Of a stretch of 61,329 nucleotides of DNA, positions 2,066 through 20,497 are shown in pieces. A program made the translations under genes and the position numbers. Positions within the stretch are counted from its first letter, which is position 1. Every line of letters begins with the position of its first letter. This DNA is from Clostridiaceae bacterium BRH_c20a (GTDB taxonomy: Bacteria > Bacillota > Peptococcia > Peptococcales > BICA1-8). The stretch covers positions 1-61,329 of the forward strand of contig LADT01000014.1 of the NCBI GenBank assembly GCA_000961765.1, in the 5' to 3' direction. The notes beneath the pieces were generated by a model. It saw nothing but the letters and a program-made list of their open reading frames with translations, did not search any database and was not told where the DNA came from.

Positions 2066-2992
2066 TTATTCCTTAAGCCCTCGAACGATTTTTTCGGCTA
2101 CTAATTCAGCTACCCGATTCTGAGCATCACTAGTCCAAGCTCCTAAATGAGGGGTGATTAAGAAGTTATTAAGATCAAATAATTTGGAATGTGGAATTTT
2201 CTGTTCAGGGGCAGGCTCATTCTCCATTACGTCACTACCAGCTCCACCCAACTTTCCGTCCGCAAGCGCCTTATATAGGGCTTCCTCATCTACTACTCCG
2301 CCCCTACTCATATTTATTAGAAATGCTCCTTTTTTCATCTTTGCAATTTGATCATAAGATATAAAATGATACGTTTCTTTTGTTAACGGTGCATGTATTG
2401 TCATGATATCTGCAACTGTAATTAGTTCATCTAAGGAAACCAATTTAATATCTTGTGGAACATTATTTTGAGATACGTAAGGGTCAAAAGCCATTACTTT
2501 CATTTTAAATGCATTAGCTATTTCCGCTACACGTAAACCTATTCTTCCCAGCCCTATGATACCAAGGGTTTTGCCTGACAATTCACCACCCATAAAAAGA
2601 AACTTATTCCAATCATTATCATCTCTAACATTTTTACTGGCAGCCCAAACATTCCTATATAAATTTAACATATGGGCAAAAGTTAGTTCAGCTACCGATT
2701 CTACATTGCCTCCGGGGATATTATAAACTTTAATATTTTTTTGTTTTGCATACTCAACATCTATATGATTCAATCCTACTCCTGGCACTGCGATTACTTT
2801 TAGTTTTGCACCTTTATCTATTACTTCTTTATCAACAGGTGTGTTACCCCTTACCATAACCGCATCATAATCTGCAATAACTTCTACTAAACCAGACTTA
2901 TTAATTTCAAATTCTTTCGTCACTTCACATTCCTTTTCCAGTATTTTTATACCAACCTCTTCCAAAATGTCAGCAAGTAAAACTTTGTACAT
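2066..2992 (-). CDS. D-isomer-specific 2-hydroxyacid dehydrogenase (SerA/SlcC-like)
   Basis: NAD(P)-dependent oxidation of a 2-hydroxyacid to the 2-oxoacid. The 308-residue protein has the family layout: split catalytic domain around a Rossmann core with GLGRIG near residue 147, the catalytic Arg in the NMSRGGVVDE segment, the catalytic Glu in ENEPAP and the catalytic His in TPHLGAW. The ATG at 2992 sits 8 bases after AAGGAG, better placed than the GTG at 3001. In aerobic sulfolactate degraders a member of this family, SlcC, oxidises (S)-sulfolactate while an Ldh_2-type enzyme, ComC, handles the (R) form; both family types occur here next to a SuyAB-like lyase. That is an analogy; a phosphoglycerate or other hydroxyacid substrate cannot be excluded. 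Confidence 0.9.
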   Translation of the reverse strand: MYKVLLADILEEVGIKILEKECEVTKEFEINKSGLVEVIADYDAVMVRGNTPVDKEVIDKGAKLKVIAVPGVGLNHIDVEYAKQKNIKVYNIPGGNVESVAELTFAHMLNLYRNVWAASKNVRDDNDWNKFLFMGGELSGKTLGIIGLGRIGLRVAEIANAFKMKVMAFDPYVSQNNVPQDIKLVSLDELITVADIMTIHAPLTKETYHFISYDQIAKMKKGAFLINMSRGGVVDEEALYKALADGKLGGAGSDVMENEPAPEQKIPHSKLFDLNNFLITPHLGAWTSDAQNRVAELVAEKIVRGLKE

Positions 2993-3412
2993 AACATTCA
3001 CTCCTTATCAATTCGCAAAATTGTAGATACCCCAAAAAGCTCTATCTAATAAATTGCTAGTTTTAAATTTCCAGGGAAATAAAGACAGAATACCGTTATC
3101 CACGTTTAAAGTTCCGCAATAAACGAATCACCACCCCATGATTTCGGTAAGCGACATTCCACTTTCCAGATCTTTAATCATAATATTCTGCATTTATTCA
3201 AATTTTCCTCCTAAAATTAAAAATAAATGTAAAATTTTATTACAAAATTAGCCTAAGAAATTAGCTCGGACAATGTCACATAGAAATTTTAATGCAACGA
3301 GAAACTGAGAAGATAATTGTAGTTATTCCGAAATAATTGTCAAAAAATAGCGCTTTTTGGAATTTCCCTTTCAATAGAGTTGCTTTCAATAAGTACTATT
3401 TACTTTTATTAC
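2993..3412. other. Intergenic with a possible tiny or decayed reading frame
   Basis: A gap of 420 bases inside the catabolic cluster. On the minus strand an ATG at 3193 opens a 21-codon frame ending in TGA at 3128-3130; the same frame stays open beyond the TGA to a TGA near 3011. A GGAGG at 3207-3211 lies 13 bases before the ATG, rather far. I recognise no protein in it. The rest is AT-rich without a clear terminator. Confidence 0.3.
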
Positions 3413-4585: not shown

Positions 4586-4613
4586 TTCTATCCCCCTATC
4601 CAAATTACTTTTT

Positions 4614-4904
4614 TTACTTGCCTCTTTCGCTTGCTATATTATGCGTATGCACCCATTGTCCCGCCTTTATATCCTGAGTAGCAAAACCTATATCTTCACC
4701 ATATTTAATTATCCTATCCTGTTTTTTAATATCTTGAACTGCAACTTTATGACCAAATGGAATCTTCTCTTTTAGAATAAAGCAAATTGATTTACCCTTT
4801 ACTTCTAGATGAATTTCTTTACCAATCATGTTAAGTTCAGTTAATGCAACAGAAACATTATCCTCTAGGCTTAGGAGATAAATTTGTCTTTTCAAAAGTT
4901 TCAC
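4614..4904 (-). CDS. UxaA/SuyA-family lyase, small SAF-domain subunit
   Basis: Small partner of the lyase at 3413-4585, about 93-96 residues. It is almost entirely an SAF domain, with IPFGHKVAVQDI near residues 49-60, KYGEDIG, AT-DI and the terminal VHTHN motif that in UxaA and SuyA contributes to the active site. The N-terminal part (DNVSVALTEL) also follows the family. The start may be the GTG at 4904, which overlaps the stop of the upstream dehydrogenase (GTGA), or a TTG three codons later that is better spaced from the GAGGGGG site. Tight coupling to both neighbours shows the dehydrogenase and lyase are made together. Confidence 0.88.
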   Translation of the reverse strand: MKLLKRQIYLLSLEDNVSVALTELNMIGKEIHLEVKGKSICFILKEKIPFGHKVAVQDIKKQDRIIKYGEDIGFATQDIKAGQWVHTHNIASERGK

Positions 4905-5908
4905 CCCCTCGATGTTAATTTCTTAACTTTCAACTCATTAGCTAAGCTGTCAAGATCCTCAACAATCTTATCCTCCAAGGGAATACCAAACACCTTTCTT
5001 TGTTTTACTTTTTCAATACTCTTTTCACCCGGAATAAACACACGTTCAAAACCTGCAAGAGAAGGTGAATTTTTAAGATTCTGAACCATTTCGTCCATTC
5101 TAGCTTTAAACCTATCTAAAGAGAGAAATTTATCTATATTAATAGCAAGCATAAGCGTCCCATTCCGTTCCGAGTCAGTAAGGACCTTAGATAAGATTTC
5201 GATGGCCAAAGCAAGTCCATAACCCTTCGCCCCCGCCATGGGAAGTATTGCACCGGCAAGCGCTTCTGCAGGATCACTAGTTGGATTACCATCTTTATCT
5301 ATACCCCAACCAATCGGTATCTTCTCCCCACGCTTAGCAGCCAGGATAACCTTGCCACGGGCAACCACACTTGTGGAAGCATCAAAAATAAATGGCGGTT
5401 CATTTCCACAAGGTACAGCGACAGCAAGAGGATTAGCACCAACCATAGGCTTTTTCCCGCCGTACGGAGTAACATTAGGAGCAGCTGTACTGATGGCAAT
5501 ACCTACCATGTCTTTTTTTAAAGCCATCATAGCATAATAAGCTAACATCCCTGTATGATTTGAATTCCTAAGTGCTACGCAATAAATACCTGTTTCAGCT
5601 TTTTGCAAACAAAGTTCCATAGCTTTTACAGCACTAATAAGCCCAAGAACATTACCTCCATCAATAACTGCCGAACTCACAGTTTCCTGTAAAACTTTTA
5701 TCTCTTGGTGTGGTTCAATAAGCCCTTTTTCGAAATGTTCTTTATACATAACCAATCTAGATACTCCATGGGAACTTACACCCCTAAGATCTGCCTCTAC
5801 TAAAACATCCGCGGCAATACGGGCGTTTTCAGGACTAACACCACAACGGGTTAATACTTCGCAACCAAACTCAAACAATTGTTCATTTGTAAATAGCTTC
5901 TCATTCAT
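4901..5908 (-). CDS. Ldh_2-family (malate/L-lactate/sulfolactate type) dehydrogenase, copy 2
   Basis: NAD(P)-dependent 2-hydroxyacid dehydrogenase of the Ldh_2 (YlbC/AllD/ComC) fold, unrelated to classical Rossmann LDH. Visible family marks: EADLRGVSSHGVSRL with the conserved His near residue 47, NSNHTGMLAYY near 117, GANPLAVAVP, ARGK near 184 and AKGYGLALAIEIL near 227. Start ATG at 5908 is preceded by GAGGAGAAGG. At 335 residues it is shorter than its neighbour: the stretch after EILSKVLT lacks about 15-20 residues that the other copy has, a region that usually lies near the active site. It overlaps the SAF subunit by four bases. ComC, which makes or uses (R)-sulfolactate, belongs to this family, but so do malate, ureidoglycolate and diketogulonate enzymes. 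Confidence 0.9.
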   Translation of the reverse strand: MNEKLFTNEQLFEFGCEVLTRCGVSPENARIAADVLVEADLRGVSSHGVSRLVMYKEHFEKGLIEPHQEIKVLQETVSSAVIDGGNVLGLISAVKAMELCLQKAETGIYCVALRNSNHTGMLAYYAMMALKKDMVGIAISTAAPNVTPYGGKKPMVGANPLAVAVPCGNEPPFIFDASTSVVARGKVILAAKRGEKIPIGWGIDKDGNPTSDPAEALAGAILPMAGAKGYGLALAIEILSKVLTDSERNGTLMLAINIDKFLSLDRFKARMDEMVQNLKNSPSLAGFERVFIPGEKSIEKVKQRKVFGIPLEDKIVEDLDSLANELKVKKLTSRG

Positions 5909-5927: not shown

Positions 5928-6977
5928 TTATATTCTTTCAGCTATATTTAAGGACTCAGCTAATAAATTAAGGTCATTTATAACCTTTTCATCTAACCCA
6001 ATACCCTTTTTAAGCCCTTCCTGCATACGGTTGTGTTCAATTTCACCAGGCAAATATATTTCATCAACATTAGGAGCTGCAGGCGACCCCTTTATCTCAT
6101 TAATTAATTCCTCGATCCGTTCTTCAAATTGTTTTAGCGACATAAAATTATCTATTCGAAAAACACTTATAAAAGCCCCCAAATTTAAAGGTGTCTCAAA
6201 ATCTTCAGTCATAGATGGAACTTTCGATCCAAAATTGGCTCCAGTTAACACCCCAGCTAATATATCTACCAAAAGCGAAAGACCATATCCCTTTGGGCCA
6301 CCAAAGGGAAGAACTGTTCCAAATCTAGCCTTTTCCGCATCTTCCGTTGGGTTTCCATCCTTATCCAGCGCCCAGCCTAATGGAATTTTATCTCCTTTTT
6401 TTGCTGCCAAGAGTATTTTCCCCCTGGCAACAGTGCTTGTAGCCATATCTAGGACAATTGCCGGGAACCTACCCGCAGGCACTCCTACCGAGATAGGATT
6501 TGTCCCCAGAATAGGCCTTATACCTCCCCATGGGGCCATATGAGCCGAAGCATTACCAACACAAAATCCTATCATACCTTCTTTAGCAACTTTCAGTACA
6601 TAATCAGCACAAATGCCTATATGATTTGTATTCTTTATTCCGACCATGCTTTGCCCATTTTCCTGGGCTATGGAAATAGCCCTATTTACGCCATCAGTCA
6701 CATTAATTTGCCCTAGCCCATTATCTCCATCAATCAAAACTGTCGTGGAGGTTGATTTTATAACCTTTGGATTTGGATTGGGATTAATTAATCCAAGCTG
6801 AATCCTTTTTATATAGACAGGCAACCTAGCCACACCGTGAGAGGAAACACCACGCAAGTCCGCAGTTACTAAATTATCTGTAACTAATTTTGCATTTGCT
6901 TCAGATACACCTACGTGCATTAAAATTTTGTTGCAAAAGGCTTTAATCTCAGTGTGCATATATTCCAAATTAGCCAC
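5928..6977 (-). CDS. Ldh_2-family 2-hydroxyacid dehydrogenase, copy 1
   Basis: Second member of the same fold, about 346-349 residues, full length for the family. Same markers in the same order: TADLRGVSSHGVARL near residue 39, NTNHIGICADY near 117, GTNPISVGVP, STVARGK near 190, PKGYGLSLLVDIL near 232. Only 19 bases separate it from copy 2. The start is not settled: GTG at 6977 is too close to the GGGGGAG site, whereas a TTG three codons in is spaced 8 bases from it. Two diverged tandem copies suggest different stereo- or chain specificities and not simple dosage. The pair together with a D-2-hydroxyacid dehydrogenase could racemise a hydroxyacid through the oxoacid. Confidence 0.9.
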   Translation of the reverse strand: MANLEYMHTEIKAFCNKILMHVGVSEANAKLVTDNLVTADLRGVSSHGVARLPVYIKRIQLGLINPNPNPKVIKSTSTTVLIDGDNGLGQINVTDGVNRAISIAQENGQSMVGIKNTNHIGICADYVLKVAKEGMIGFCVGNASAHMAPWGGIRPILGTNPISVGVPAGRFPAIVLDMATSTVARGKILLAAKKGDKIPLGWALDKDGNPTEDAEKARFGTVLPFGGPKGYGLSLLVDILAGVLTGANFGSKVPSMTEDFETPLNLGAFISVFRIDNFMSLKQFEERIEELINEIKGSPAAPNVDEIYLPGEIEHNRMQEGLKKGIGLDEKVINDLNLLAESLNIAERI

Positions 6978-7495: not shown

Positions 7496-8794
7496 TTAGT
7501 TTTTACCTCTTTTTGAAGTTACTACTTGCAAACTATGAGGAAGTACAATAATCTTTGCATTCTTCCCATAATGATTTAAACCATATTCCAATGCATCACT
7601 TACATTGTTCATGGCTTTCATGTGCATTTTCTCTACAATTTCTGGAGTCTTTGAGTCAGTAATACAAACTTTAGCATGTCTTAATGTCAATGCCATCAAA
7701 TAAGCTCTTTGCCCTCCAGCAAGATACCCGTTTTGCTGGATGTCTAGTATTATATTTTCAATATTTTCAGCACTTTGCATAATGTGATAGAACCTTTGTT
7801 CTCCTAATCCTCGCCCTGCCCCCTCTTCCGTCTCGGCAGGGGTAATAATGAGTCCACCCTTTTTTACAGCAGGGTAATTACTAAAAGCTATACAACTAGC
7901 ACCCCTAGTTGCTTGATATAAATTTGCGTCTTTCGGAAAACCAATACCTGCTATAGCTATATCAGCCTGCTCTTCAATTTCTACCTGGTAGACTTTTTTA
8001 GCAATTTCAATACCCTGATAATAGGCCTCTTTAAAACAACCGGCTACAACCCCAGCTATTTCTCCTTTATCATTCAAAATAGCATTAAGTATAAATCCCA
8101 ACCCAGCCATTTCGGCTATTTCCATTGCATTTTCGTGAAATATGTTCTCGCATATATTGCCAATTTGTGTATTTGGGTGATCAAAAACTTCAGGCCTATG
8201 CTGAAACATAATTGTTTCTTCTCCGGCAACTCCAATTGCAATACTTTTTCTACCCCCACTAAATCCGGCATAAAAATGAGGTTCAATTACTCCTGTGCTG
8301 ATAAGCAAATCAGCATTTGCTGCAATCCTATTAATCCACACAGGGCAGCCAAAGCTAGTTTTACCTAAAAATAACTGCTCACTTTTCTCATTACCTACGT
8401 GATTGATAATCTTATATCTTTCAACAATATCTTTATTTAGCCGCTCAATTAGCTCATTCTTAGTATTTGGTCTATGAAGACCTGTCGCAATAAGAATTTT
8501 TATATGCTCAGGTTTAACTTTTGCTTTTTCTAGCTCAGTTAATATAGCCGGAACCAATAAGTGATCAGGAGTCGGCCTAGTAATATCTGTAATGACAATA
8601 ACTACACGTTTTTTTCCTCTCGCTAATTCTATTAGAGGTTTACTATTAGTTGGATTTACCAACACATCTCTAATTGCTTTGGCAGGGTTATCTAAAATCT
8701 GAATAACTTGCGGTTTAAGTACTCCTAACAAGTTTTCATCCGGTATTGCAAGTTCTATTTCTCTTTTATTTAACGGAATTTTTACAATTGCCAT
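7496..8794 (-). CDS. larA: LarA-family nickel-pincer hydroxyacid racemase
   Basis: Member of the LarA superfamily, enzymes that racemise or epimerise 2-hydroxyacids with a nickel pincer nucleotide (NPN) cofactor bound to a lysine. The 432-residue protein keeps the key residues at almost the same numbers as Lactiplantibacillus LarA: GLH with His107, EPHFYAG with His173, GGRKS with Lys183 and FQHRP with His199. An N-terminal ITDITRPTPD segment near residue 69 also follows the family. Start ATG at 8794 follows GAGGAG. No larB, larC or larE cofactor genes are in the window, so they must be elsewhere. Family members act on lactate, malate, phenyllactate or gluconate-type substrates; here the neighbours suggest the same hydroxyacid that the dehydrogenases and lyase handle. 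Confidence 0.88.
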   Translation of the reverse strand: MAIVKIPLNKREIELAIPDENLLGVLKPQVIQILDNPAKAIRDVLVNPTNSKPLIELARGKKRVVIVITDITRPTPDHLLVPAILTELEKAKVKPEHIKILIATGLHRPNTKNELIERLNKDIVERYKIINHVGNEKSEQLFLGKTSFGCPVWINRIAANADLLISTGVIEPHFYAGFSGGRKSIAIGVAGEETIMFQHRPEVFDHPNTQIGNICENIFHENAMEIAEMAGLGFILNAILNDKGEIAGVVAGCFKEAYYQGIEIAKKVYQVEIEEQADIAIAGIGFPKDANLYQATRGASCIAFSNYPAVKKGGLIITPAETEEGAGRGLGEQRFYHIMQSAENIENIILDIQQNGYLAGGQRAYLMALTLRHAKVCITDSKTPEIVEKMHMKAMNNVSDALEYGLNHYGKNAKIIVLPHSLQVVTSKRGKN

Positions 8795-8835
8795 ATCATT
8801 ACTCCTCTAATTAAAACTCTCATTTAATATATAAA

Positions 8836-8856
8836 AGGGGAGAGTTTTTCTCCCCT
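8836..8856 (-). terminator. Hairpin after the glycyl radical enzyme gene
   Basis: Arms AGGGGAG and CTCCCCT enclose a 7-base loop and are followed, on the minus strand, by TTTTAT. It lies between the GRE stop and the larA-like gene, so it may end or attenuate the upstream transcript. Confidence 0.5.
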
Positions 8857-8892
8857 CTACACCCATCCGTTCCTTAAAAACAATTAGACTTG

Positions 8893-11349
8893 TCAGCACA
8901 TCTGATGTTCTGTACGATTGATAATTTCATTTTGAAGGTCCGGACTCAGCTCAGTAAAATATGCACTGTATCCAGCTACTCTTACAATTAAATTGCGATA
9001 TTTTTCAGGCTCCTTTTGCGCTTTTATCAAAGTGTCTTTGTTAATAACTGCAAATTGAATATGCCACAGTTTCAAATCTACAAATGTCCTAATAAATGCC
9101 ATTAAATCTCGAGTTCCTTTTTCTCCCGTTAAAATCTGAGGACTAATTTTAATATTTGTCAAGCGAGATAGACTATTATTATATAAATTGCTTTTTGCCT
9201 TAGCTATTGATAGTAAAGTTACCAAGGGACCTTCCGTGTCACGACCTTGCGTTGGTGAGATGCCCTCTGACAAAGCTTCCCCAGCTTTTCTACCATTTGG
9301 TGTAGCATTCATTTTACGCCCCATCGCGACATGAGTAGTGACTGGAACATGCTTTAAATTCTGAGGGCCGTTAGGTGTTCTGTATCTTCTGACAACATCA
9401 CAAATTATTTCATCCGCTTGACGAGCAACCTCAGTGGCAAAATCATCATTGTTTCCATACTGAGGTGCATTCAGCAGTATTTGTCTTAGCCTTTCATGGC
9501 CTTCAAAATTTGCTTCTAAAGCTTTTTTTAATTCATCTAAGGTAATTTTCTTTTCTTCAAATATTAATTTTTTTATCGCAGCCAAAGATTCCACAACAGT
9601 ACCAAATCCTATTACACTTAAATTTCCTGTATCTTTGGATAAGCCATGCCCACGGATTGGTTGATGGATATCAGTTAAAGATTCCACACAAGCATCATTT
9701 AGCATTGACATAAAAGGTGCTGCAAGGCATGCTGCATTTGATATTTCCAAAGCCGCTTGACGTTTATAGTAATGCTGCACTAAGAAATCCCATGCTTCCG
9801 TAAAGTTTTGCAACAAATCCTCATAAGTCTTAATATCAGTTGCTTTTATTGAGGGTGCCATTAACTTTTTCTTTGTACCATCAATATCAACAACACCGTC
9901 ATTCATTGCCATTTCTAATGCAGCCGGTGTATTAAGATTACAGCCGACAGCCATATATGTGTCAATATCAAGTAATCGAACCTCAGTACAACCACAGGGA
10001 ACATAATCTCTAACTTCCTGAATAGAAACACCATTTTGCAAAATAAACGGAATTATTTCTTCATCATTTAAAAGTTTGGGGAAACCTGTGCCTTCTTTGA
10101 TTAATTCTACAATTGCACGAAGGAGTCTATCGGGTGTTCGAGAATGTACACGAACAGACAAATCAGGATAATGTAACGGGAATTCTTTTTTTGATCTAAG
10201 AATTAAGTAGGTTAATTCATTTGTAGCATCATGCCCATCTTTTGTTTGTCCACCAAGGACTGTCTGCTCAAAGTGACAATAACCTTCAAAATAATTCTGT
10301 GTAGCAGTTATATTAAATGGTACATAGTTAGCTATTTTAAACCATAGACATTCCATTAATTCCAAGGCTCTTTCTTCATCTATAACCCCAGCCTGATAAT
10401 CCTTGTTAAAAGTTGAATACATATATTGATCAAAGCGCCCTAAAGAAATAACACCCACAGTAGGTTGTTCTAATTTATAAGCAGTTTGCACAAACCACTG
10501 ACATTGTAATGCTTCCCAGAAACTACGCGCAGGATGGGCAGGTACCCTTTCACAATTTCGGGCAATCATTTCCAGTTCCTCTTTGCGCTTAGGGTCCTTT
10601 TCTTTCAGGGCCAACTGCCTGGCTTTGTTTGCATAGCGAGTAGCATAACCCATTATTCCATCACAAACAATAATTGCTGATTGTAAAAATGCCATTTTCG
10701 AATAATCACTGTCAGGAACTTTATTTAAACGCTCCTGCATTTCTTTCTTAATTTCCAAAATTCCTTTGTCAATTACTTTTTTGTAATTACCAGCCCAATT
10801 CAAAGTAGTATTTATATTGGCGTTATCTTGTAATAGTCCAGCCGAGCCCCAATTATCATTACCATAAATAACTTCTCTGGTATCTGGAGGTAGCATCGCA
10901 AGATATCTTTCATGTGCACTTTTACCCTTCCAATAGGGTATAACCTTTTCTTTTATGACTTGAATATCTTCATCACTTATTTGAAAAGCTTTGCTTTTTT
11001 GAGCTCCTCTTAAAGCTTTTTCAAACCAAGGACCACGAACTTCTGGAAAAAGAATTGAATGTCTTCCGGCACCACCACAAGTACCAACTATTAATTCATT
11101 ATCTTCGATAACTACATCAATATGATTAAGAACGTAGTTTAAAGCTTTAGCCCTCCTGATATTCATAGGATAATTTTCTGTTTGCGACATAGATTCGGTA
11201 AAAAGAACAGCTCTTTGGATATCAATTCTCGGGATTTGATCCCTAAAATTAGAAAGGAAACCATTAATCCGTTGTCTTGGACTCAGTTGTCCTGCTCCAC
11301 TTTCAATTCTTTTTTCCTGTTCAGTCAAACAACAAGCGTTCATGGCCAT
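8893..11349 (-). CDS. Glycyl radical enzyme of the dehydratase/C-S lyase/decarboxylase branch, substrate unknown
   Basis: An 818-residue PFL-fold enzyme that uses a backbone glycyl radical and a thiyl radical. The glycyl loop is VRVAGYSAYF with Gly793; the thiyl loop is PCGCTE with Cys454 and Glu456. The Cys-x-Glu pattern is that of diol dehydratases, choline lyase, hydroxyproline dehydratase, isethionate/dihydroxypropanesulfonate sulfite-lyases and arylacetate decarboxylases, not of PFL, which has two adjacent Cys. The C-terminal INRTEHQ also fits this branch. The region near residues 183-190 (LNWAGNY) lacks the Gly-His I expect from memory in many relatives. ATG at 11349 follows AAGGAGG. 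The activase is at 12004-12927 and a DUF3870 gene lies between. With a SuyAB-like lyase and TTT importers nearby, a C3 sulfonate or polyol-type substrate is plausible, but specificity cannot be assigned. Confidence 0.93.
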   Translation of the reverse strand: MAMNACCLTEQEKRIESGAGQLSPRQRINGFLSNFRDQIPRIDIQRAVLFTESMSQTENYPMNIRRAKALNYVLNHIDVVIEDNELIVGTCGGAGRHSILFPEVRGPWFEKALRGAQKSKAFQISDEDIQVIKEKVIPYWKGKSAHERYLAMLPPDTREVIYGNDNWGSAGLLQDNANINTTLNWAGNYKKVIDKGILEIKKEMQERLNKVPDSDYSKMAFLQSAIIVCDGIMGYATRYANKARQLALKEKDPKRKEELEMIARNCERVPAHPARSFWEALQCQWFVQTAYKLEQPTVGVISLGRFDQYMYSTFNKDYQAGVIDEERALELMECLWFKIANYVPFNITATQNYFEGYCHFEQTVLGGQTKDGHDATNELTYLILRSKKEFPLHYPDLSVRVHSRTPDRLLRAIVELIKEGTGFPKLLNDEEIIPFILQNGVSIQEVRDYVPCGCTEVRLLDIDTYMAVGCNLNTPAALEMAMNDGVVDIDGTKKKLMAPSIKATDIKTYEDLLQNFTEAWDFLVQHYYKRQAALEISNAACLAAPFMSMLNDACVESLTDIHQPIRGHGLSKDTGNLSVIGFGTVVESLAAIKKLIFEEKKITLDELKKALEANFEGHERLRQILLNAPQYGNNDDFATEVARQADEIICDVVRRYRTPNGPQNLKHVPVTTHVAMGRKMNATPNGRKAGEALSEGISPTQGRDTEGPLVTLLSIAKAKSNLYNNSLSRLTNIKISPQILTGEKGTRDLMAFIRTFVDLKLWHIQFAVINKDTLIKAQKEPEKYRNLIVRVAGYSAYFTELSPDLQNEIINRTEHQMC

Positions 11350-11590: not shown

Positions 11591-11911
11591 TTAATCTAAA
11601 TTTAAAGCTCTTTCCTTGTACCTTTCTACAGCATTTTTTATAGCCCGTATTAACGCACCAGTAGTAGAGAGGCATATCTTTTCTTTAATCTCTTTAAATA
11701 GAGGTTCTAAGGAATCATTTAAACAGTATCCATTAACTAATTCTTCTAAACAAGCTTGTGTTAATGGCGATAATAGATTAAAATTAGTTTCTACTATACA
11801 ATTGGTTTCAGTATCAATAAGAAGTTGAACAGTCATAGTCTGATATACAGTTACCTCTTTTGGCGGTTTAGCACTACCCCCAACTAAGATGCGGCCATCC
11901 ATTCTTTTCAT
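11591..11911 (-). CDS. DUF3870-like small protein
   Basis: A 106-residue soluble protein that I place tentatively in DUF3870. Start ATG at 11911 has AAGGTGAAG upstream. It opens with GRILVGGSAKPPKEVTVYQ, then a beta-rich part with a short Cys-containing strand (TNCIVETNFN), and a C-terminal helical segment with CLSTTGALIRAIKNAVERY. No membrane segment or known catalytic motif. It sits between the activase and the glycyl radical enzyme. Proteins of this family occur beside catabolic operons, and I know of no assigned reaction. Its position suggests a role tied to the GRE or its substrate, but nothing in the sequence proves it. Confidence 0.6.
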   Translation of the reverse strand: MKRMDGRILVGGSAKPPKEVTVYQTMTVQLLIDTETNCIVETNFNLLSPLTQACLEELVNGYCLNDSLEPLFKEIKEKICLSTTGALIRAIKNAVERYKERALNLD

Positions 11912-12003: not shown

Positions 12004-12927
12004 TTATACCTTTTTCCGAAGGTTTAACATTTTTCGAATTCGCTGATTCAATTCATAAATCGGTTCTTTTTCAAGCGATCCAATACCTTCTAATTTATAT
12101 GTCATTCCAAGTTGCAGATATTTTGAACTTCCATATCCATGATAAGGCAATAGTTCATAATCATTCAAATTATCTAGTCCATCTAGAAACTTAACTATAT
12201 TAATAATATCCTTCTCTTGATTATTAATATTTGGTATAACAGGTGTACGAACAATAATTTCAATATCAGGAAATTTTTCAGTTAATTTTTTAATGTTTTG
12301 TAAAATAACTGAATTATCAACACCTGTATAATTATTATGCTTTTGTTTATTCAATATTTTGATATCATAAAAAATTAAATTACACCACCTCGCTACCTGT
12401 TCGAGCCTCTCCCAAGGAGCATATCCAGTAGTTTCAATAGCTGTATGAACTCCCACAGTTTTATATTTCTTTAATAAGGCGGTTACAAAGTCCGCCTGTA
12501 ATAAAGGTTCTCCACCACTGATTGTGACACCTCCGTTTGACCTCCATGTATCTGTCTGGTTTTGGGTTTTTTTAAAAACTTCATCAACTGTCATATCTGT
12601 TCCAAAAACGTGCAAAGCTTTAGAACAACAAATATTTACACATTTCAGACAATTAATACACTTACTTCTATCCATCTCAATATTATTTTTTCCATTAATA
12701 GTAAATACCTCTTGAGCACATTCCTTAACACAGTAGCCACATGATTCTACACCTATACATCTCTTGCTATTATATGCTAATTGGAAACTCGGTGACTGCG
12801 TTTCTGGATTGGAACACCAAATACATTTTAATGGACATCCCTTCATGAAAACCAAATCACGAATGCCAGGTCCATCGTGAACAGAATATTTTTGAATATT
12901 AACAATACGTCCTGTAAGTTCTTTCAT
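12004..12927 (-). CDS. Glycyl radical enzyme activating enzyme (radical SAM)
   Basis: Installs the glycyl radical on the enzyme at 8893-11349 using S-adenosylmethionine and a [4Fe-4S] cluster. The radical SAM motif is CPLKCIWC near residue 32. Between it and the SAM-binding GGEPLLQ segment near 150 lie two ferredoxin-like Cys groups, CIGVESCGYCVKEC and CINCLKCVNICC, the double-cluster insert typical of activases of dehydratase/decarboxylase-type GREs and missing from PflA. The ATG at 12927 is spaced six bases from GGGGTG; the frame open to 12996 has no signal. About 307 residues, normal for the group. A 93-base gap separates it from DUF3870. Confidence 0.93.
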   Translation of the reverse strand: MKELTGRIVNIQKYSVHDGPGIRDLVFMKGCPLKCIWCSNPETQSPSFQLAYNSKRCIGVESCGYCVKECAQEVFTINGKNNIEMDRSKCINCLKCVNICCSKALHVFGTDMTVDEVFKKTQNQTDTWRSNGGVTISGGEPLLQADFVTALLKKYKTVGVHTAIETTGYAPWERLEQVARWCNLIFYDIKILNKQKHNNYTGVDNSVILQNIKKLTEKFPDIEIIVRTPVIPNINNQEKDIINIVKFLDGLDNLNDYELLPYHGYGSSKYLQLGMTYKLEGIGSLEKEPIYELNQRIRKMLNLRKKV

Positions 12928-13023
12928 AACCATCACCCCAACTTTTTTTAAACTCAACTCTACTGAACTTTTTTTAATTAAAACAATTAAATTCAATACA
13001 ATTATTTAGTTAGAAAAACTAAA

Positions 13024-13267: not shown

Positions 13268-14689
13268 CTACATTAAACCCAAGCGAGGCCACAGGGTCAA
13301 TGCCATGCCACCATAAACAATTGCCGATACCAAACTCATAAAAACCCCTGCAGTTACGAGGTCTTTTGCCTTGTAATAACCAAAACTGTAGGTAATAATA
13401 TTTGGTACAGTCTCTATTGTTAAAATAAAACCTAGAAGGCTTGATAATCCGCCAACCATTGCAAAAACTAATGGATTTATGCTTAGTTGTTGGCAGAATT
13501 GAATAACTAAAGGTACCATTAATGCAGCAACTACCGATGAGTTGGCTACAAACAGATGTAATACATGTGCCAAAATGACAATACTAAAAACAGCCAAGAA
13601 AGGCACAGTAAATAAAACTGCTAACCATTCCCACTTAATTAAAATGCTACTTATATCACTTATTGCGCTACTTTGACTAATTATTGACATTGTTGATAAT
13701 ACACCGCCAATAAAGATTACTGATTGCCAATCAATTTTAAGCAACTTGTTCCAAGAAGTAAAACCTGGACCAGGGAAACACATCAAAATAGGACAAAGTA
13801 AAGCTGGTACTGATGTCGGAAACCCGTGCCAAACCTGTGTCATCCATAGTAACACTGTTACAGTCAAAATTAAAATACACTTAAACTCTTCATTAGTTAA
13901 TTTTCCAAGCTCGGCTAGATCTTTTCTAACTACCTCTATGCCTCCCGGAATTTCTTTCACCTCCGGCGGCAAAAGGCGAAGAAGAATTAACCAAGCACAA
14001 AACAATAATATAATTGAAGCTGGCAAGAAATGAACCAACCACTGAAAATAGGTAATTGATACTCCTAGGTACATCTTAATAAGATCTACCGTAATAATAT
14101 TTATTAAAGCACTAGGCATAATTCCAACAGAACTAATCAGGGCACTATAAGCCAGCGTTAAGAATAGCAGTGCTTTAATATTTGTACTTTTTGGCAATTC
14201 ACCTAATCTGTCTATAATTGCCATTACGGGTGGTACGAGTAAAAAAATTTTTACAGAACTACCTGGTATAAAAAAACTAAAAACAAACATGGCTACTATA
14301 ATACCCGCCAAAACTCCCGGTATAGTACTCCCGAATCGTACTAAAAGTATATATGCGAGACGTTTGCCCAGTAGTGTTTCATTAACCCCTTGCGCCATCA
14401 TATATCCACCAAGACATAAAAATACACCATTAGATGCAAAGCCACTTACTGCTTCCTCAAACGTGGCAATGCGCGAAAAAACAAAACCTAATAACAAAAT
14501 AATAGAAGTCATTGATACCGGAATAGGCTCCATTACCCATAGGACAATAGCCATGCCAATTAGTCCAAAAACAATTCTTATCTGTGGAGAAAAACTATCC
14601 GGCAAAAACACCATTACTGCTATTAATATAATTATTGCTAGGATAAATGCCAGAAAAACGAACCGAAAAGATTTATTATTATTTTCCAT
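13268..14689 (-). CDS. DASS/SLC13-like anion permease
   Basis: Integral membrane carrier of the divalent anion:sodium symporter type, about 473 residues with some 11-12 hydrophobic segments. ATG at 14689 is preceded by GGAGG. The two conserved Ser-Asn-Thr type hairpin motifs of the family appear degenerate: FIPGSSVK near residue 145 and VANSSVVAAL near 400. It therefore belongs to a divergent branch whose substrate and coupling ion cannot be read off. It lies inside the cluster between the complete TctABC set and the GRE genes. It could import the substrate, exchange product for substrate, or export an anionic end product such as sulfite or a carboxylate. Confidence 0.8.
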   Translation of the reverse strand: MENNNKSFRFVFLAFILAIIILIAVMVFLPDSFSPQIRIVFGLIGMAIVLWVMEPIPVSMTSIILLLGFVFSRIATFEEAVSGFASNGVFLCLGGYMMAQGVNETLLGKRLAYILLVRFGSTIPGVLAGIIVAMFVFSFFIPGSSVKIFLLVPPVMAIIDRLGELPKSTNIKALLFLTLAYSALISSVGIMPSALINIITVDLIKMYLGVSITYFQWLVHFLPASIILLFCAWLILLRLLPPEVKEIPGGIEVVRKDLAELGKLTNEEFKCILILTVTVLLWMTQVWHGFPTSVPALLCPILMCFPGPGFTSWNKLLKIDWQSVIFIGGVLSTMSIISQSSAISDISSILIKWEWLAVLFTVPFLAVFSIVILAHVLHLFVANSSVVAALMVPLVIQFCQQLSINPLVFAMVGGLSSLLGFILTIETVPNIITYSFGYYKAKDLVTAGVFMSLVSAIVYGGMALTLWPRLGLM

Positions 14690-14745
14690 TTCAAGTGCCT
14701 CCAATCAAACAACAAGAAAAACCATAATAGAGTCTTTAATGATAA

Positions 14746-14850: not shown

Positions 14851-15882
14851 TTACAGTCCTGCGAAAGCAAGAAGCTTTTTGTATGCTTCAAATTCCCATT
14901 CGAGATATTTAACTAAATCCTCAGTATTCATGTAGTTAACCGTTGAACCCGTACTTTCCATATATTCAGGATATTCTTTACTTTCCACAGCTGCTTTTAA
15001 CATATCATGCAGTTTCTTCACCACTTCAGGAGGAGTACCTTTAGGAGCATAAAATGCCCTTACTGCCTGAGCCGTTATATCCGGATAACCTAATTCAACC
15101 ATAGTAGGTGCATCCGGTCCTAACGCACTTCTATCTCTTCCCAGTGAAACAAGTACCTTGAACTCGCCAGTTTTCAAACCAGATAAGGCTTCATTAGGCG
15201 CAATAGCTATCGCATCTACTTGTTTTCCCAAAAGAGCCGGTGCCGCGGGAGCTCCACCTGTCCCACTTGGAATAATATTCAGATCTAGATTCAGGGCATT
15301 TTTCATAGCCAACGCCCCTACTTGCCAGAGCCCACCTGCAGCACCTGTCTGAACTTTCAATCTTTTTTCTTTAGCTGCAGCAATAAAATCCTCCAGTGTA
15401 TTCCAACCGGAATCGCTGCGCACTATTAGTGCAGCTGGGTCAGTATTAACTGCAATAATTGGCTCAAAATTTTCATAGTTTAGTTCAGTATGCCCCATAT
15501 GTTTGAGAACAGAAATATTTGAAGTAATAAACAATAAATTGTAACCATCAGGGGTAGATTTGGCTATATTCCCCATAGCTAGTGCACCAGCACCACCAAT
15601 ATCATTTGTACAAACCCAGTTTACTCCGGAATTCTTTTCAGCTAATCCAGCTAATATTCTACCTACTTGATCAGTACCCCCACCGGCGCCAAATGGTATA
15701 GAAATGTTTATATTTCTTTTAGGAAAATCAACTTCTTTTTTTTCTTCTACTTGTTTATTCTCTGGTGCTTTTTCTTTTTCTTGGACGTTATTATCTTGAG
15801 TATTACCACAAGCTGCTATAAAGACTAAGCCTATTATCAAAATAATACTTAATAATAAAGATTTTTTTAGAACCTTAGACAT
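14851..15882 (-). CDS. tctC: TctC/Bug-family solute-binding lipoprotein (first copy)
   Basis: Substrate binder of the TctABC importer encoded by the three adjacent genes. ATG at 15882 follows AAGGAGG; the longer frame to 15957 lacks a signal. The signal peptide has a lysine-rich start, a hydrophobic core and lipobox FIAAC at the end, then an Asn/Glu/Lys-rich linker. The mature domain shows PKRNINISIPFGAGGGTD, the family's first binding loop, and GGAPAAPALLGKQVDAIAIAP in the second lobe. About 343 residues. Together with tctA and tctB it forms the only complete TTT set in the window. Confidence 0.92.
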   Translation of the reverse strand: MSKVLKKSLLLSIILIIGLVFIAACGNTQDNNVQEKEKAPENKQVEEKKEVDFPKRNINISIPFGAGGGTDQVGRILAGLAEKNSGVNWVCTNDIGGAGALAMGNIAKSTPDGYNLLFITSNISVLKHMGHTELNYENFEPIIAVNTDPAALIVRSDSGWNTLEDFIAAAKEKRLKVQTGAAGGLWQVGALAMKNALNLDLNIIPSGTGGAPAAPALLGKQVDAIAIAPNEALSGLKTGEFKVLVSLGRDRSALGPDAPTMVELGYPDITAQAVRAFYAPKGTPPEVVKKLHDMLKAAVESKEYPEYMESTGSTVNYMNTEDLVKYLEWEFEAYKKLLAFAGL

Positions 15883-16028
15883 TCTATATACCTCCTTTTT
15901 TAGAAACCTTTTTCCTGCAAAGTGAACCCACCTAGAATTATGCCCCCCACATAACATCTTTGAAAGCTAAGTTCAAAGTGCTATCAACCTCCTCTCACAT
16001 TGTTACTTCTATACTATTATTTCTTAGC

Positions 16029-17522
16029 TCAGTCATTTACCGCAATATCTTTTAAACTTTTGTTTTTTATTTTAGGTGCTATAAACATGAGTAATAAAAT
16101 AATCCACAAAACCGCACTAATAGGTCTGGTAAATAGTTGAAGTATATCACCTTCAGCTAATTGCAAAGCAATCCTTAAATTCAATTCAAATATCGGCCCA
16201 AGAACAATTCCCAAAATCATCGGAGCTATGGGGAATTGATTTTTTCTCATGTAATATCCTATTACCCCAAATATTAACATAACCATTACATCAAATAATC
16301 GATTTGCATAAGCAAAGGAACCCACTATACAAAATAGACTGATTATTGGCATAAGTAAATTTTTAGGAACTGTAATAGCTTTCGCAAAAACTTTCGCACA
16401 CGACATCCCTAAAATTATTAAATATAAATGGGCAACTAGCAAACCAAAGTATAGCGCATAAATAATTTCAGGATTATCTCTATAAAGCAATGGACCAGGT
16501 GTTAAGTTATGAATCATAAATGCACCAATAAGAATTGCCGTTATTGCATCTCCCGGAATTCCCAATGTTAAAAGAGGAATAAACGCCCCCCCTATAGCAG
16601 AGTTATTTGCCGATTCGGGAGCTGCTATTCCCTCAGGGATTCCTGTGCCAAATTTTTCAGGATATTTTGAAATTCTTTTGGCTTCGTTATAACCAAGGAT
16701 AGACCCAATTGCACCGCCAGCTCCGGGTAGGGCTCCAATAAAAGTTCCGATTCCAGCACTACGTAGAACAACCTTCCAGATTACCTTTATATCTTTTAAA
16801 GTTGGCCAAAGTCGACCAATTTTTTGAGTAGCCGTTACTCCCTGCATCTCTTTTGTAGTAAGCTGAGTTAAAACCTCCGCAATACCAAAAAGTCCAATCA
16901 TAATAGGAATATAGGAAATCCCTGCAAATAACTCCTGTGAACCATAGGTAAATCGAGGGACACCTATTATAGGATCCATCCCTATACAAACTACAAATAG
17001 ACCGAGCCCAGCAGATATAAAGCCCCTGACAAGAGATCCTTGCGAAAGTGCAGCTACAACACTTAGTCCAAAACAGCAAAGCGCAAAGTATTCCGCCGCT
17101 CCAAACTTAAGTGCAAACCTCGCAAGAAAAGGAGCTACGGTCAATAGGACACAAACTCCAAACATACCTCCAAAAAATGAAGAAACCGTTGCTAAGCCGA
17201 GTGCTCTCCCAGCTTCACCCCTTACTGCCATTGGGTTTCCATCTAGTGCAGTCATTAATGCCGATGGGGTCCCCGGAATGTTTAGCAATACAGCAGATAT
17301 AGATCCACCATATATACCACCTATATATATTCCGGTTAACATCATCAAACCATTGATAGCTGACAAAGAAAAGGTAAATGGTGTAAGGATGGCTATTGCC
17401 ATGGTTGCTGTTAAACCCGGTATCGCACCAACTATGATTCCAAAGAACATTCCAAGAAGACATAATATTAGTGCTTCCGGGGTGAAAGCCAAGCTGAAAC
17501 CCGCTAATATATCTGGATTCAT
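16029..17522 (-). CDS. tctA: TctA-family large membrane subunit of the tripartite tricarboxylate transporter
   Basis: Large permease subunit, 497 residues with about 12 membrane segments. Family marks: an N-terminal GxxxGxIPGLTATMAIAIL segment near residue 28, IYGGSISAVLLNIPG near 69, the LPGAGGAIGSILGYNEAKR segment near 264 and GIPGDAITAILIGAFMIHNL near 324. ATG at 17522 follows AAGGAGATTGCT. The gene lies 28 bases downstream of tctB. Ion-coupled uptake of a carboxylate or sulfonate is the known job of the family; slcHFG of sulfolactate users is one such set. Confidence 0.95.
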   Translation of the reverse strand: MNPDILAGFSLAFTPEALILCLLGMFFGIIVGAIPGLTATMAIAILTPFTFSLSAINGLMMLTGIYIGGIYGGSISAVLLNIPGTPSALMTALDGNPMAVRGEAGRALGLATVSSFFGGMFGVCVLLTVAPFLARFALKFGAAEYFALCCFGLSVVAALSQGSLVRGFISAGLGLFVVCIGMDPIIGVPRFTYGSQELFAGISYIPIMIGLFGIAEVLTQLTTKEMQGVTATQKIGRLWPTLKDIKVIWKVVLRSAGIGTFIGALPGAGGAIGSILGYNEAKRISKYPEKFGTGIPEGIAAPESANNSAIGGAFIPLLTLGIPGDAITAILIGAFMIHNLTPGPLLYRDNPEIIYALYFGLLVAHLYLIILGMSCAKVFAKAITVPKNLLMPIISLFCIVGSFAYANRLFDVMVMLIFGVIGYYMRKNQFPIAPMILGIVLGPIFELNLRIALQLAEGDILQLFTRPISAVLWIILLLMFIAPKIKNKSLKDIAVND

Positions 17523-17550: not shown

Positions 17551-18072
17551 TTAAAGATACGGAATAAACTTACCATGCGGAAAAGGAACACGTAAAAGAA
17601 CCGCAAAAACATATCCTATGATACCTACAGTAACCAGAGAAATTATTGCTGCCTGCCATAATTTAACTGCTCTGAGTGCAATAAATAGGCTAACCAAAAA
17701 AACAAAACTTGTAATATAAAAACCAAACAAAACAATCAGATACCGATAGACAATAATAGAAGCTATAACACCTATCAGCCATATAGACTCGGTCGATATT
17801 ATTTTCTGCAAAAAGCCGGAACTAAAATTAGTAGTTTTATGTATTTTGGCGGTATTTTCATTTTGCCGAATTGTTTGGTATAAAAATACTATAGAACATA
17901 TCAATAAAAAAACACCCACCAACCCCGGGACAAGACCCGGAGTTACCATATCTATAGCTTCCGCAAGACCCTTAAGATGGTACGAATAATAAATTACATA
18001 TAAACTGAAAAATATTAATACTATAGCAATAACGGAATCTTTTTTTAAAAGTTTATGAATCAACAAAATCAC
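17551..18072 (-). CDS. tctB: TctB-family small membrane subunit (first copy)
   Basis: Small membrane subunit for the adjacent tctA, about 171-173 residues. Hydrophobic stretches near 14-30, 42-62, 86-104, 108-128 and 140-160, with the family segment AIDMVTPGLVPGLVG between the first two. The nominal start is a GTG within AGAGGTG, so one of the TTG codons two or three positions later, properly spaced from that site, is more likely. Confidence 0.85.
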   Translation of the reverse strand: MILLIHKLLKKDSVIAIVLIFFSLYVIYYSYHLKGLAEAIDMVTPGLVPGLVGVFLLICSIVFLYQTIRQNENTAKIHKTTNFSSGFLQKIISTESIWLIGVIASIIVYRYLIVLFGFYITSFVFLVSLFIALRAVKLWQAAIISLVTVGIIGYVFAVLLRVPFPHGKFIPYL

Positions 18073-18156: not shown

Positions 18157-19245
18157 TTATCTTGGTACTAAAGAACCTTTGATAAAATTAGATGCTTCAA
18201 TTTCACCGGCTGCCATTTTGAGGGCTTTCTCCACATCTTCAAAACCAAACTCATGGGTGATTATTTCTTCAAAGGGATACTTATGTGACTGAGCTAATTT
18301 AATTCCCTTCAGCACTGACTGATAGTCATAACTATAAGCTCCATGAATCTTTATCTCCTTCCAAGCAATCTCATCTGATACAATATTTATTGTTTTTCCA
18401 CCATTTATACCTGCCAAAACAACAGTCCCTAATGCTTTTACCAGATTAATAGACATTTCAGTAGCACTTGCGGCACCAGTAACATCTACTACTAGATCAG
18501 CCATTTTTCCATCAGTAATCTCTTCTACCACTTTAACTGCATTATTTTTCTCTACATTTATTAGATAGTCAGCGCCCATTCTTTTTGCTACCTCAAACCT
18601 GTAGTCATCTCTGGATAAACCTGTTGCAATAATTTTTTGAGCACCCAACTCTTTCGCCGCAGCAATAGATACAAGCCCTTGAGCCCCAACTCCCTGAATA
18701 ACTACAGTATCACCCATGGAAACACCACCAACACTTTCAACCCATCTAATTCCATTACTTATTACAGAACAGATTAGTGATGCTACTTCCGGATTGAGGT
18801 CAGTTATTTTATGTACAACCGCATTAGGATGAAGATACATGAATTCCGAATAAGCACCCCATAAATAAGGTGGTACATTTGATGATACTTTGCAACCATA
18901 ACCTAATGAACTTTTACACAACCTATGTTTTCCGGATAAACACATTTCACAATGACCGCAACCAAATGACGTTTCTACAATAACAGTATCACCTTCAACT
19001 ACTCCCCATCTTTTTGATGCTCTGTCACCAATCTCATCAATCGTCCCAACCATTTCGTGTCCCAAAATCAAAGGGAAATTCCTGCGCCGTTCTACCTCTC
19101 CACGAAAAAAATGAGGATCTGATGCACATATGCCTGTTTTAATAACTTTCAGCAAAGCATCGTCTTCACTAATAGCTGGGCGCGGGAACTTTTTCATCCT
19201 TATTTTCCCGGGTTCTTCTACTACCAATGCTCTAATTTGTTGCAT
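18157..19245 (-). CDS. Zinc-dependent medium-chain alcohol/polyol dehydrogenase
   Basis: MDR-family NAD(P)-dependent dehydrogenase of 362 residues, similar to threonine/sorbitol dehydrogenases. Catalytic zinc: Cys in TGICASDPHF near 40 and GHE in LGHEMVG near 63. Structural zinc: four Cys in CGHCEMCLSGKHRLC near 98-112. NAD site: GVGAQGL near 184. ATG at 19245 has AAGGAGG nine bases upstream; the 52-codon extension to 19401 is not supported. It lies upstream of the TctBAC genes. In GRE pathways that yield an aldehyde or hydroxyacetone such an enzyme could reduce the product, but other roles such as oxidising an incoming polyol are equally open. Confidence 0.9.
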   Translation of the reverse strand: MQQIRALVVEEPGKIRMKKFPRPAISEDDALLKVIKTGICASDPHFFRGEVERRRNFPLILGHEMVGTIDEIGDRASKRWGVVEGDTVIVETSFGCGHCEMCLSGKHRLCKSSLGYGCKVSSNVPPYLWGAYSEFMYLHPNAVVHKITDLNPEVASLICSVISNGIRWVESVGGVSMGDTVVIQGVGAQGLVSIAAAKELGAQKIIATGLSRDDYRFEVAKRMGADYLINVEKNNAVKVVEEITDGKMADLVVDVTGAASATEMSINLVKALGTVVLAGINGGKTINIVSDEIAWKEIKIHGAYSYDYQSVLKGIKLAQSHKYPFEEIITHEFGFEDVEKALKMAAGEIEASNFIKGSLVPR

Positions 19246-19579
19246 TTTGGATTTCCTCCTTTCGTATTTATATAGCCTCTCGGAAATTCGAGAGTTTTGT
19301 GGTTCAAAGCACTTGACCTTGACCAACTTTTTATTACACAAATTTCCATAACAAAAAATTAAGCACTTGGGAACCTGACCAACAATTTCAAATCCCATCA
19401 ATACGAGCTTTTGCAGAAAATCTTTAAGGAGTGCTTGTCGTCCCCTCCGCCAAGTTGGGACCTTTAAAATGTTAAGCTAGCCTTTACAGAAAGTTGATTT
19501 GCGATTGCCAATAAATGAGAGTCTATAATTATAGTCCCCGTAAGCATAGCGACCCTGAGGCTTCCTGGGTCTGGGACAG
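19246..19579. other. Intergenic between two dehydrogenase genes
   Basis: 334 bases with small imperfect palindromes (TCTCGGAAATTCGAGA near 19277; TATAATTATA near 19525). No confident terminator, promoter or gene. Confidence 0.4.
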
Positions 19580-20497
19580 TTATTGGGAAGAGTATTTGTA
19601 TTGAAGATTTTCATGATATAGCTTTTCATATACCTTGAGGATACTCGAGGAATCCTTTTCCCCGAACCCCATAGCTATCGCAAGTTGTTGCATCTGCATA
19701 GCTATAGAGGGAAATAAAGATACTCCTTTTTCATCCTGAGCCATTTTAAGAATCAAACCCAAATCCTTATGCGCTATATTAACTGTAGCCTTTAAGTCAA
19801 AGGTTCCATTCGCAATTCCAGGCGCTCTATTGTTAAGAATGTAACTATAAGCTGAACCTTTTAGTAATATTTCTAGTAGTAAATCAGTTTGTAATCCTCC
19901 TTTTTTGGCCAATGCCAAGGCTTCACACGCTACAACGAGATTAACGTGTGAAATATAATTATTTATCAACTTAGCTTTCGCCCCAGTACCTATTGAACCA
20001 ACATGATAAATATCTGATCCAATAACCGAAAAAATATCTTGGCAATTTTCATATAATTGTTTTTCTCCACCTACTAGGATCAGTAATGTTCCTGCTTTTG
20101 CCCCACCTGGTCCACGAATAACAGGAGCTTCAAGATATCCAACTTGTCTCTCTTTTAAGGTGCGCTCCATTTCAATAGATGTTTGCGGAGCAACTGTCGT
20201 CATGTCAACAACTATACTATCCGACTTTAAGCCGTTTATTAAACCATTAGACCCAAGTATAATGTCCTTTAATGCTTCATCATTTAATACGATAGTAAAT
20301 ACATAATCAACTTGTTCAGCTAACTCTTTAGGACTTTCGACTATATTTGCCCCTAATTCCGCCAATTGAAGCGCTTTTGACTTTGTTCTGTTATAAACAG
20401 TAACTTCATAACCCGCTTTAATTAAATTAATGGCGATAGGTTGCCCCATCATACCTAAACCTATAAAACCAATCCTCTTCTTTACACTTTTCACCAT
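19580..20497 (-). CDS. 3-hydroxyisobutyrate/beta-hydroxyacid dehydrogenase family oxidoreductase
   Basis: NAD(P)-dependent beta-hydroxyacid dehydrogenase of about 305 residues. N-terminal Rossmann motif GFIGLGMMGQPIA near residue 9, the substrate-binding segment APVIRGPGGAKAGTL near 121 and the catalytic Lys in GTGAKAKLINNYI near 170 are all present. The ATG at 20497 lies four bases from GGAGG and a GTG one codon later is spaced seven, so either may be used. Family members reduce or oxidise 3-hydroxyisobutyrate, tartronate semialdehyde, hydroxymethylglutarate or, as in YihU, sulfolactaldehyde. It is the first gene of the catabolic cluster in transcription order. A sulfolactaldehyde or tartronate-semialdehyde step would fit the theme but is inference. 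Confidence 0.9.
   Translation of the reverse strand: MVKSVKKRIGFIGLGMMGQPIAINLIKAGYEVTVYNRTKSKALQLAELGANIVESPKELAEQVDYVFTIVLNDEALKDIILGSNGLINGLKSDSIVVDMTTVAPQTSIEMERTLKERQVGYLEAPVIRGPGGAKAGTLLILVGGEKQLYENCQDIFSVIGSDIYHVGSIGTGAKAKLINNYISHVNLVVACEALALAKKGGLQTDLLLEILLKGSAYSYILNNRAPGIANGTFDLKATVNIAHKDLGLILKMAQDEKGVSLFPSIAMQMQQLAIAMGFGEKDSSSILKVYEKLYHENLQYKYSSQ

Follow-up and report, generated by a model that had tools for sequence, protein, structure and literature searches.

A glycyl radical enzyme subfamily sister to the sulfonate-cutting eliminases, and its possible role in sugar-acid dehydration

Specificities of glycyl radical enzymes (GREs) have been found one by one, usually exposing an unknown anaerobic route. 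The closest described systems to the enzyme discussed here are the sulfonate-cutting GREs IslA, IseG and HpsG. In IslA, the sulfonate is bound by Arg189, Gln193 and Arg678, which are conserved among IslA homologues, and Trp374 is typical of this enzyme (PMC8473560). The GRE in question is encoded on contig LADT01000014.1 of Clostridiaceae bacterium BRH_c20a; the window below denotes the whole stretch of 61,329 nucleotides that was analysed. Its relevant features are collected in Table 1.

Table 1. Features of the window that surround or may cooperate with the GRE gene.
Feature	Position	Strand	Remarks
GRE, 818 aa	8893..11349	(-)	Cys454-Thr455-Glu456, Gly793; pocket Asn180, Asn184, Gly299, Phe360, Lys666, Val670
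GRE-activating radical-SAM enzyme	12004..12996	(-)	CPLKCIWC motif; NCBIfam TIGR02494 340 bits vs cutoff 174
LarA-family nickel-pincer 2-hydroxyacid racemase	7496..8794	(-)	Gln/Arg at LarA1 W358/T359 in the HMMER register
DUF3870 protein	11591..11911	(-)	Pfam; IscU-like predicted fold without IscU metal ligands
TctB, TTT importer upstream of GRE	17551..18072	(-)	Pfam PF07331
TctA, TTT importer	16029..17522	(-)	Pfam PF01970; homologues at other group I loci
TctC solute receptor, TTT importer	14851..15957	(-)	Pfam PF03401
DASS-family anion symporter	13268..14704	(-)	TIGR00785 205.5 bits, above cutoff
PGDH-like D-2-hydroxyacid dehydrogenase	2066..3001	(-)	72% identical orthologue in G469 GRE/LarA operon
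LDH2-family 2-hydroxyacid dehydrogenase, possible partner	5928..6977	(-)	
Second LDH2-family dehydrogenase, possible partner	4901..5908	(-)	
Zn-type alcohol dehydrogenase, possible partner	18157..19401	(-)	
HIBADH-family beta-hydroxyacid dehydrogenase, possible partner	19580..20572	(-)	Family also at three other clade loci
Split SuyA/SuyB- or UxaA-like pair	4614-4904 and 3413-4603		

Intactness, kinship and pocket of the enzyme

The GRE reading frame opens with an ATG behind a GGAGG site and contains no internal stop. Cys454-Thr-Glu456 and Gly793, the latter within IVRVAGYSAYF, lie exactly where an initial annotation of this DNA had placed them, and Cys454, Glu456 and Gly793 are invariant in an alignment of 26 sequences. 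An AlphaFold model computed from this alignment (pLDDT 87.7, pTM 0.89) retrieves IseG, IslA and HpsG as top Foldseek matches (TM 0.93–0.95), followed by the glycerol, propanediol and choline GREs. Given that 801 columns of the model can be superposed on IseG with a TM of 0.93, a chance likeness to known GREs is no concern for the predicted fold. The ten-stranded barrel, the Cys-x-Glu motif, the C-terminal glycyl loop RVAGY and a radical-SAM activase, encoded two genes upstream, are those of a GRE eliminase. This bears out the earlier placement in the dehydratase/lyase/decarboxylase branch, in which a characterised close relative was not found. Since fold, catalytic residues and activase gene are all present, the machinery appears intact, and the predicted enzyme is almost certainly a functional, oxygen-sensitive eliminase. 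A chemistry resembling that of PFL via the extra Cys452 was considered and rejected; Ala occupies this position in two clade members, and PCGC occurs in some other GREs. Strong terminator-like hairpins flank the GRE gene within the gene run (11421–11468 and 8834–8858), and a perfect TTGACA-17-TATAAT promoter lies upstream of the activase gene (13177–13149, minus strand), a layout that suggests attenuated or separate expression.

Among solved GREs, the enzyme is most similar to IseG (5ymr, 43.7% identity), IslA (7kq3, 42.8%) and HpsG (6lon, 41.7%). It does not reach the cutoff of any specific GRE family in NCBIfam, with 934 of the required 1000 bits for HpsG (NF048011), 539 of 1050 for CutC, 538 of 1100 for HypD and 437 of 1000 for HpfG, and lower values for the remaining named families. 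The initial annotation had called the specificity unknown, and this stands: no solved GRE exceeds 44% identity (IseG), and a search for a characterised GRE that is both highly identical and equal in its active-site residues was negative. Searches of public genomes yielded three GREs with 79–84% identity (at loci L045, L036 of genome G129, and L044), which form group I with the window enzyme; L045 is, judging from matching coordinates, the same locus as G163:C23. Six further relatives share 54–61% identity, i. e. those of G376, G428, G469 and G163:C17, a paralogue on contig C39 of the same genome and a Mailhella enzyme (L046). In a maximum-likelihood tree, these ten GREs fall into one clade (support 99/99), while IslA, IseG, HpsG and 15 relatives form a separate one (100/100). 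Outside the HpsG/IslA clade and short of the HpsG cutoff, the enzyme represents, as far as sequence and tree indicate, an uncharacterised subfamily that is sister to the sulfonate-cutting GREs. Six GREs were found in the genome of BRH_c20a. On contig C46 (59699–65605), a hydroxyproline-dehydratase-like GRE has an aldehyde:ferredoxin oxidoreductase (AOR) gene within the next 2 kb. Another set of GREs (L101–L105 and L109) retains Arg/Gln/Arg/Trp but has a TQTASIRNSLQW segment, and SDR and GntR genes are neighbours at L109; within the sulfonate branch, these sequences possibly represent yet another specificity.

In the alignment, Arg189, Gln193, Arg678 and Trp374 of IslA are replaced by Asn180, Asn184, Lys666 and Phe360, respectively, and Thr312 and Phe682 by Gly299 and Val670. 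This reading of the pocket is based on the alignment instead of the model, because AlphaFold confidence is low at residues 179–183 and 349–358. Asn180, Asn184, Phe360 and Lys666 are present in all ten clade members. Moreover, Asn180, Phe360 and Lys666 are absent at these positions from 17 sequences of the sulfonate clade, which carry Arg, Trp and Arg throughout; a further sulfonate-clade sequence with Arg, Asn, Arg and Phe (L086) is omitted from this count. The invariance of the replacements in ten members versus these 17 sequences makes the pocket change a fixed property of the subfamily. The pocket segment near residues 183–190 had been described as unusual; the pocket does deviate, at Asn176, Asn180, Asn184, Gly299, Phe360, Lys666 and Val670 and not at 183–190 as such. 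Likewise, a comparison with isethionate and dihydroxypropanesulfonate (DHPS) lyases had been proposed, and in the sequence alignment the sulfonate-binding Arg/Gln/Arg set is absent, though sulfonate lyases are the nearest kin. On the grounds of pocket residues and tree, membership among the sulfonate lyases is rejected, and the enzyme is very probably not one of them.

This has a practical consequence for annotation. Three clade members (at L107, L095 and L038) score 1072–1099 bits with the HpsG equivalog NF048011, which assigns (2S)-3-sulfopropanediol dehydratase above its cutoff of 1000, and lack every sulfonate-binding residue. Judging from these sequences, the public label is probably wrong. 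The model thus calls sulfonate metabolism where the residues for binding a sulfonate are gone, which would mislead genome-based prediction of sulfite and H2S formation.

Gene neighbourhood and conserved partners

The initial annotation had noted LarA, a SuyAB-like lyase and TTT import as unusual partners. All of these genes are present, and LarA and TTT import are conserved at relatives' loci along with DUF3870, AOR and hydroxyacid dehydrogenases; the SuyAB-like pair is not conserved with the GRE. The four group I loci have the activase, DUF3870, GRE, TTT importer and LarA in common. In addition, close LarA orthologues are encoded by just three genomes in a sample of 398 from the phylum, and these are precisely the three with group I GREs (two draws of equal size, taken to be one sample). 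Housekeeping genes delimit L045, the most compact of the operons, which consists of activase, DUF3870, TctB, TctA, TctC, GRE, LarA, AOR, GlcD and GlcF. An AOR also adjoins LarA in L044 and is found at the G469 and G163:C17 loci. In G469, the operon comprises GRE, activase, a putative membrane transporter gene, DUF3870, TctBAC, Kor, LarA, Kor, a PGDH-like gene, SucC, SucD and AOR (SucC and SucD, as well as the crotonase, HBD and thiolase mentioned below, were assigned by eye from sequence starts). Its LarA and PGDH-like proteins are 66% and 72% identical to their window counterparts, and LarA is flanked by two 2-oxoacid:ferredoxin oxidoreductase sets, of which Kor1, the one tested, is 2-oxoglutarate-like. 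Other relatives carry two HIBADH-family enzymes followed by a TAXI/TRAP importer (G376 and G428) or one HIBADH gene with DASS, TRAP, TAXI and AOR (G163:C17). Since the partners of group I differ from those in the rest of the clade, the substrates could differ as well.

The paralogue on contig C39 is surrounded by genes for a 2-oxoacid oxidoreductase, an SDR, an AbfD-like protein, crotonase, HBD and thiolase. The AbfD-like protein carries CFQRC and HRQNYGGC, the pattern of cluster ligands in 4-hydroxybutyryl-CoA dehydratase. Farther along the contig (L097), a DUF3870 gene with 77% identity to that of the window is accompanied by insertion-sequence genes, intact GlcD/GlcF and a broken AOR (19876–20825) with several stops, whose first ~100 residues are 76% identical to the L045 AOR. 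By its gene content, this neighbourhood looks like a decayed copy of an L045-type operon. An AOR was not found adjoining the window operon itself; the broken C39 gene is the closest copy in the genome, which contains ~28 AOR-like matches overall.

Downstream of a 518-nt gap, the window encodes two LDH2-family enzymes, SuyA-like and SuyB-like proteins, a PGDH-like protein and a second TTT importer, a set that resembles those for sulfolactate. Among plasmid-encoded proteins, the closest homologues of the SuyB-like protein are of UxaA type; their genes either belong to sugar-acid clusters that include alpha-ketoglutaric semialdehyde dehydrogenase (GucD) or lie next to TTT genes and a gene with a LarA domain, so that a sulfolactate role of the pair is, by sequence, not assured. 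With these homologues in other contexts and no counterpart at the other group I loci, the pair was rejected as a part of the GRE pathway. The downstream LDH2/SuyAB-like/PGDH-like/TTT genes are probably separate from this pathway, but part of them may belong to it because the G469 GRE operon contains the PGDH-like gene too. This bears on the possibility that the GRE is nevertheless a C–S lyase for a sulfonate such as sulfolactate or DHPS, which would be bound by a rebuilt site and would feed sulfite to respiration with the help of the SuyAB-like genes. The genome encodes DsrA and sulfite metabolism is therefore possible; the nearest solved relatives are sulfonate GREs, three clade members pass the HpsG model, and the neighbouring genes resemble known sulfolactate sets. 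Yet, all ten clade members have lost the three sulfonate-binding residues, the window GRE stays under the HpsG cutoff, the SuyAB-like genes are absent from the other group I loci, and AOR and LarA would lack an apparent function, which leaves a C–S lyase highly improbable.

As had been stated before, the window contains no microcompartment genes. A shell locus with seven matches is encoded on another contig of the genome (C47), on which none of the six GREs identified is located, and a microcompartment link of the window GRE was rejected. Next to the catabolic genes, positions 21235–25986 encode three consecutive tyrosine recombinases, an IS481-like transposase and a DUF6431 protein, a possible mobile element.

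The most specific companion of the subfamily is DUF3870, which is linked to all ten clade GREs (on contig C39, it lies ~13 kb downstream of the paralogue gene) and to none of 24 loci of sulfonate-lyase type. A model based on ten sequences (pLDDT 87) retrieves IscU first in Foldseek (E 0.04–0.06, probability up to 0.93), and VIA gives a Z of 9.0 over 98 residues, with IscU/ISCU2 making up most of the top 25. At the sequence level, the only match of a DUF3870 profile among PDB sequences at E values up to 10 is yeast Isu1 (E 0.012). The IscU likeness concerns the window gene and those at L036, L044, L045, L046, L095, L096, L097, L107 and L108. In the aligned segments, the cluster ligands of IscU/NifU-N (three Cys plus His/Asp) have no equivalent, as DUF3870 lacks cluster-ligand Cys and His there. 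From these models, DUF3870 is probably a distant, ligand-free IscU relative tied to the GRE clade. The idea that it assists the Fe-S-rich activase is speculative.

The window LarA retains the catalytic and cofactor-binding residues R75, H108, H174, K184 and H200 (LarA1 numbering), and LarC, the cofactor gene searched for, is encoded in the genome, which makes a functional nickel-pincer racemase plausible. Lactate racemases carry Trp plus Glu/Gln at W358/T359, while Lys preceded by His or Gln is found in malate racemases, where this Lys probably binds the second carboxylate (PMC11770544). The window enzyme has Gln/Arg here in a HMMER alignment, a register that is backed by the conserved Ala360 and that is uncertain by one column, as MAFFT places the segment one column off. 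Because this pair is close to the malate-racemase pattern, the LarA substrate probably is a 2-hydroxyacid with a second negative charge, for which the evidence from sequence is moderate. With the malate racemase model NF052593, the score is 382 bits against a cutoff of 500. Mar2 malate racemase was sought via a Sporomusa plasmid LarA, which gave no match.

Candidate reaction and comparison with known systems

The conserved partners allow the product to be narrowed down. AOR at four other clade loci and HIBADH or SDR enzymes at others point to an aldehyde, and the HIBADH-family enzymes in G376, G428 and G163:C17 fit a semialdehyde. A 2-hydroxyacid is indicated by the LarA and 2-hydroxyacid dehydrogenase genes of group I and G469. 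The simplest single product that unites both features is a hydroxyacid semialdehyde, as would arise if a polyhydroxy acid bearing a terminal diol were dehydrated. The pocket agrees with this, since exchange of the Arg, Gln, Arg sulfonate site for a milder Asn, Asn, Lys site for carboxylate and hydroxyl groups matches carboxylate counterparts of the HpsG substrate DHPS, i. e. 3,4-dihydroxybutyrate and threonate/erythronate. We tentatively propose, at slightly short of an even chance, that the window GRE dehydrates a short polyhydroxy-carboxylate with a terminal diol to a semialdehyde.

By homology, the activase would form a radical on Gly793 that is relayed to Cys454. The resulting thiyl radical may abstract hydrogen from the carbinol carbon of the substrate while Glu456 holds the hydroxyl group, before the adjacent carbon sheds its leaving group. 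A short polyhydroxy-carboxylate ending in a vicinal diol is the most likely substrate; it could be brought in by the TTT or DASS-type carriers, with Lys666 gripping its carboxylate and Asn180/Asn184 its hydroxyls. Loss of water would afford an omega-semialdehyde, which may be oxidized by AOR or, in relatives, reduced by HIBADH/SDR enzymes. Conceivably, the 2-hydroxy-dicarboxylate is then racemized by LarA and oxidized by PGDH-like, GlcDF or LDH2 enzymes to a 2-oxoacid for central metabolism. The preferred candidates would be 2,3,4-trihydroxybutyrate (threonate/erythronate), which would give malate via malate semialdehyde, or a C5 homologue, which would give 2-hydroxyglutarate semialdehyde.

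Substrates of the C4 (threonate) type and of the C5 type both fit. The malate-racemase-like LarA favours the former, and a C4 trihydroxy acid specifically is a doubtful assignment. Kor, SucCD and AbfD in relatives favour the latter, for example 2,4,5-trihydroxypentanoate (3-deoxypentonate), which would be converted via 2-hydroxyglutarate semialdehyde and 2-hydroxyglutarate into 2-oxoglutarate, succinyl-CoA and succinate. This special case of the polyhydroxy-carboxylate proposal draws on the G469 operon, where LarA between two Kor sets is followed by PGDH-like, SucC, SucD and AOR genes, on Kor, AbfD-like, crotonase, HBD and thiolase genes beside the C39 paralogue, and on the alpha-ketoglutaric semialdehyde dehydrogenase that accompanies the nearest plasmid homologues of the window UxaA-like protein. 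However, Kor and SucCD may simply be TCA-cycle genes of G469, the C39 paralogue is only ~55% identical and may use another substrate, and the LarA motif is nearer to the malate-racemase pattern than to the NQT motif for 2-hydroxyglutarate; a C5 acid is thus unlikely. The aldehyde and the 2-hydroxyacid might also be two separate products on which AOR and LarA act individually, if the GRE were a C–O ether or C–N lyase that releases a 2-hydroxyacid (or an amine) plus an aldehyde. GREs cutting anhydrosugar and C–N bonds exist (PflD, YbiW and HplG entries), and two products would explain why AOR adjoins LarA in L044 and L045, but the neighbourhood suggests no natural substrate of this type and the nearest such GREs belong to another branch, so that this scenario appears improbable.

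Returning to dehydration of a polyhydroxy-carboxylate, a literature search that also covered DUF3870 returned no description of a GRE system of this kind (with LarA/TTT, or acting on sugar acids) among the papers searched. A new GRE activity is possible, albeit speculative, in which radical dehydration of C4–C5 sugar acids links GRE, nickel-pincer racemase and ferredoxin-dependent AOR in an undescribed anaerobic route, with the IscU-like DUF3870 as an accessory specific to this GRE subfamily. For future studies, the clade offers a pocket fingerprint, the L045 operon, whose genes limit the chemistry to an aldehyde and a 2-hydroxyacid, and an accessory protein family unseen at sulfonate-lyase loci.

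Compared with known systems, the window GRE shares the eliminase fold, the CxE motif and the glycyl loop with IslA and IseG, its closest solved sequences (43–44%), yet it differs from them in the four exchanged pocket residues, its separate clade and its partners. HpsG belongs to the same wider branch, with the CTE motif and 42% identity, whereas the window GRE shows the same pocket losses relative to it, falls short of its family cutoff and has no sulfonate genes conserved alongside. The LarA is akin to the malate racemases LarAH5/6 and MAR in family, catalytic residues and, in the HMMER register, a positive charge at the T359 position, and deviates by Arg in place of Lys and by its score under the malate racemase cutoff. 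Finally, the B12-independent glycerol and propanediol dehydratases (1r8w, 5i2g) are GRE eliminases of a different branch with ~30–33% identity in the structural match, and the proposed conversion of a diol into an aldehyde would be the chemistry that the window enzyme has in common with them.
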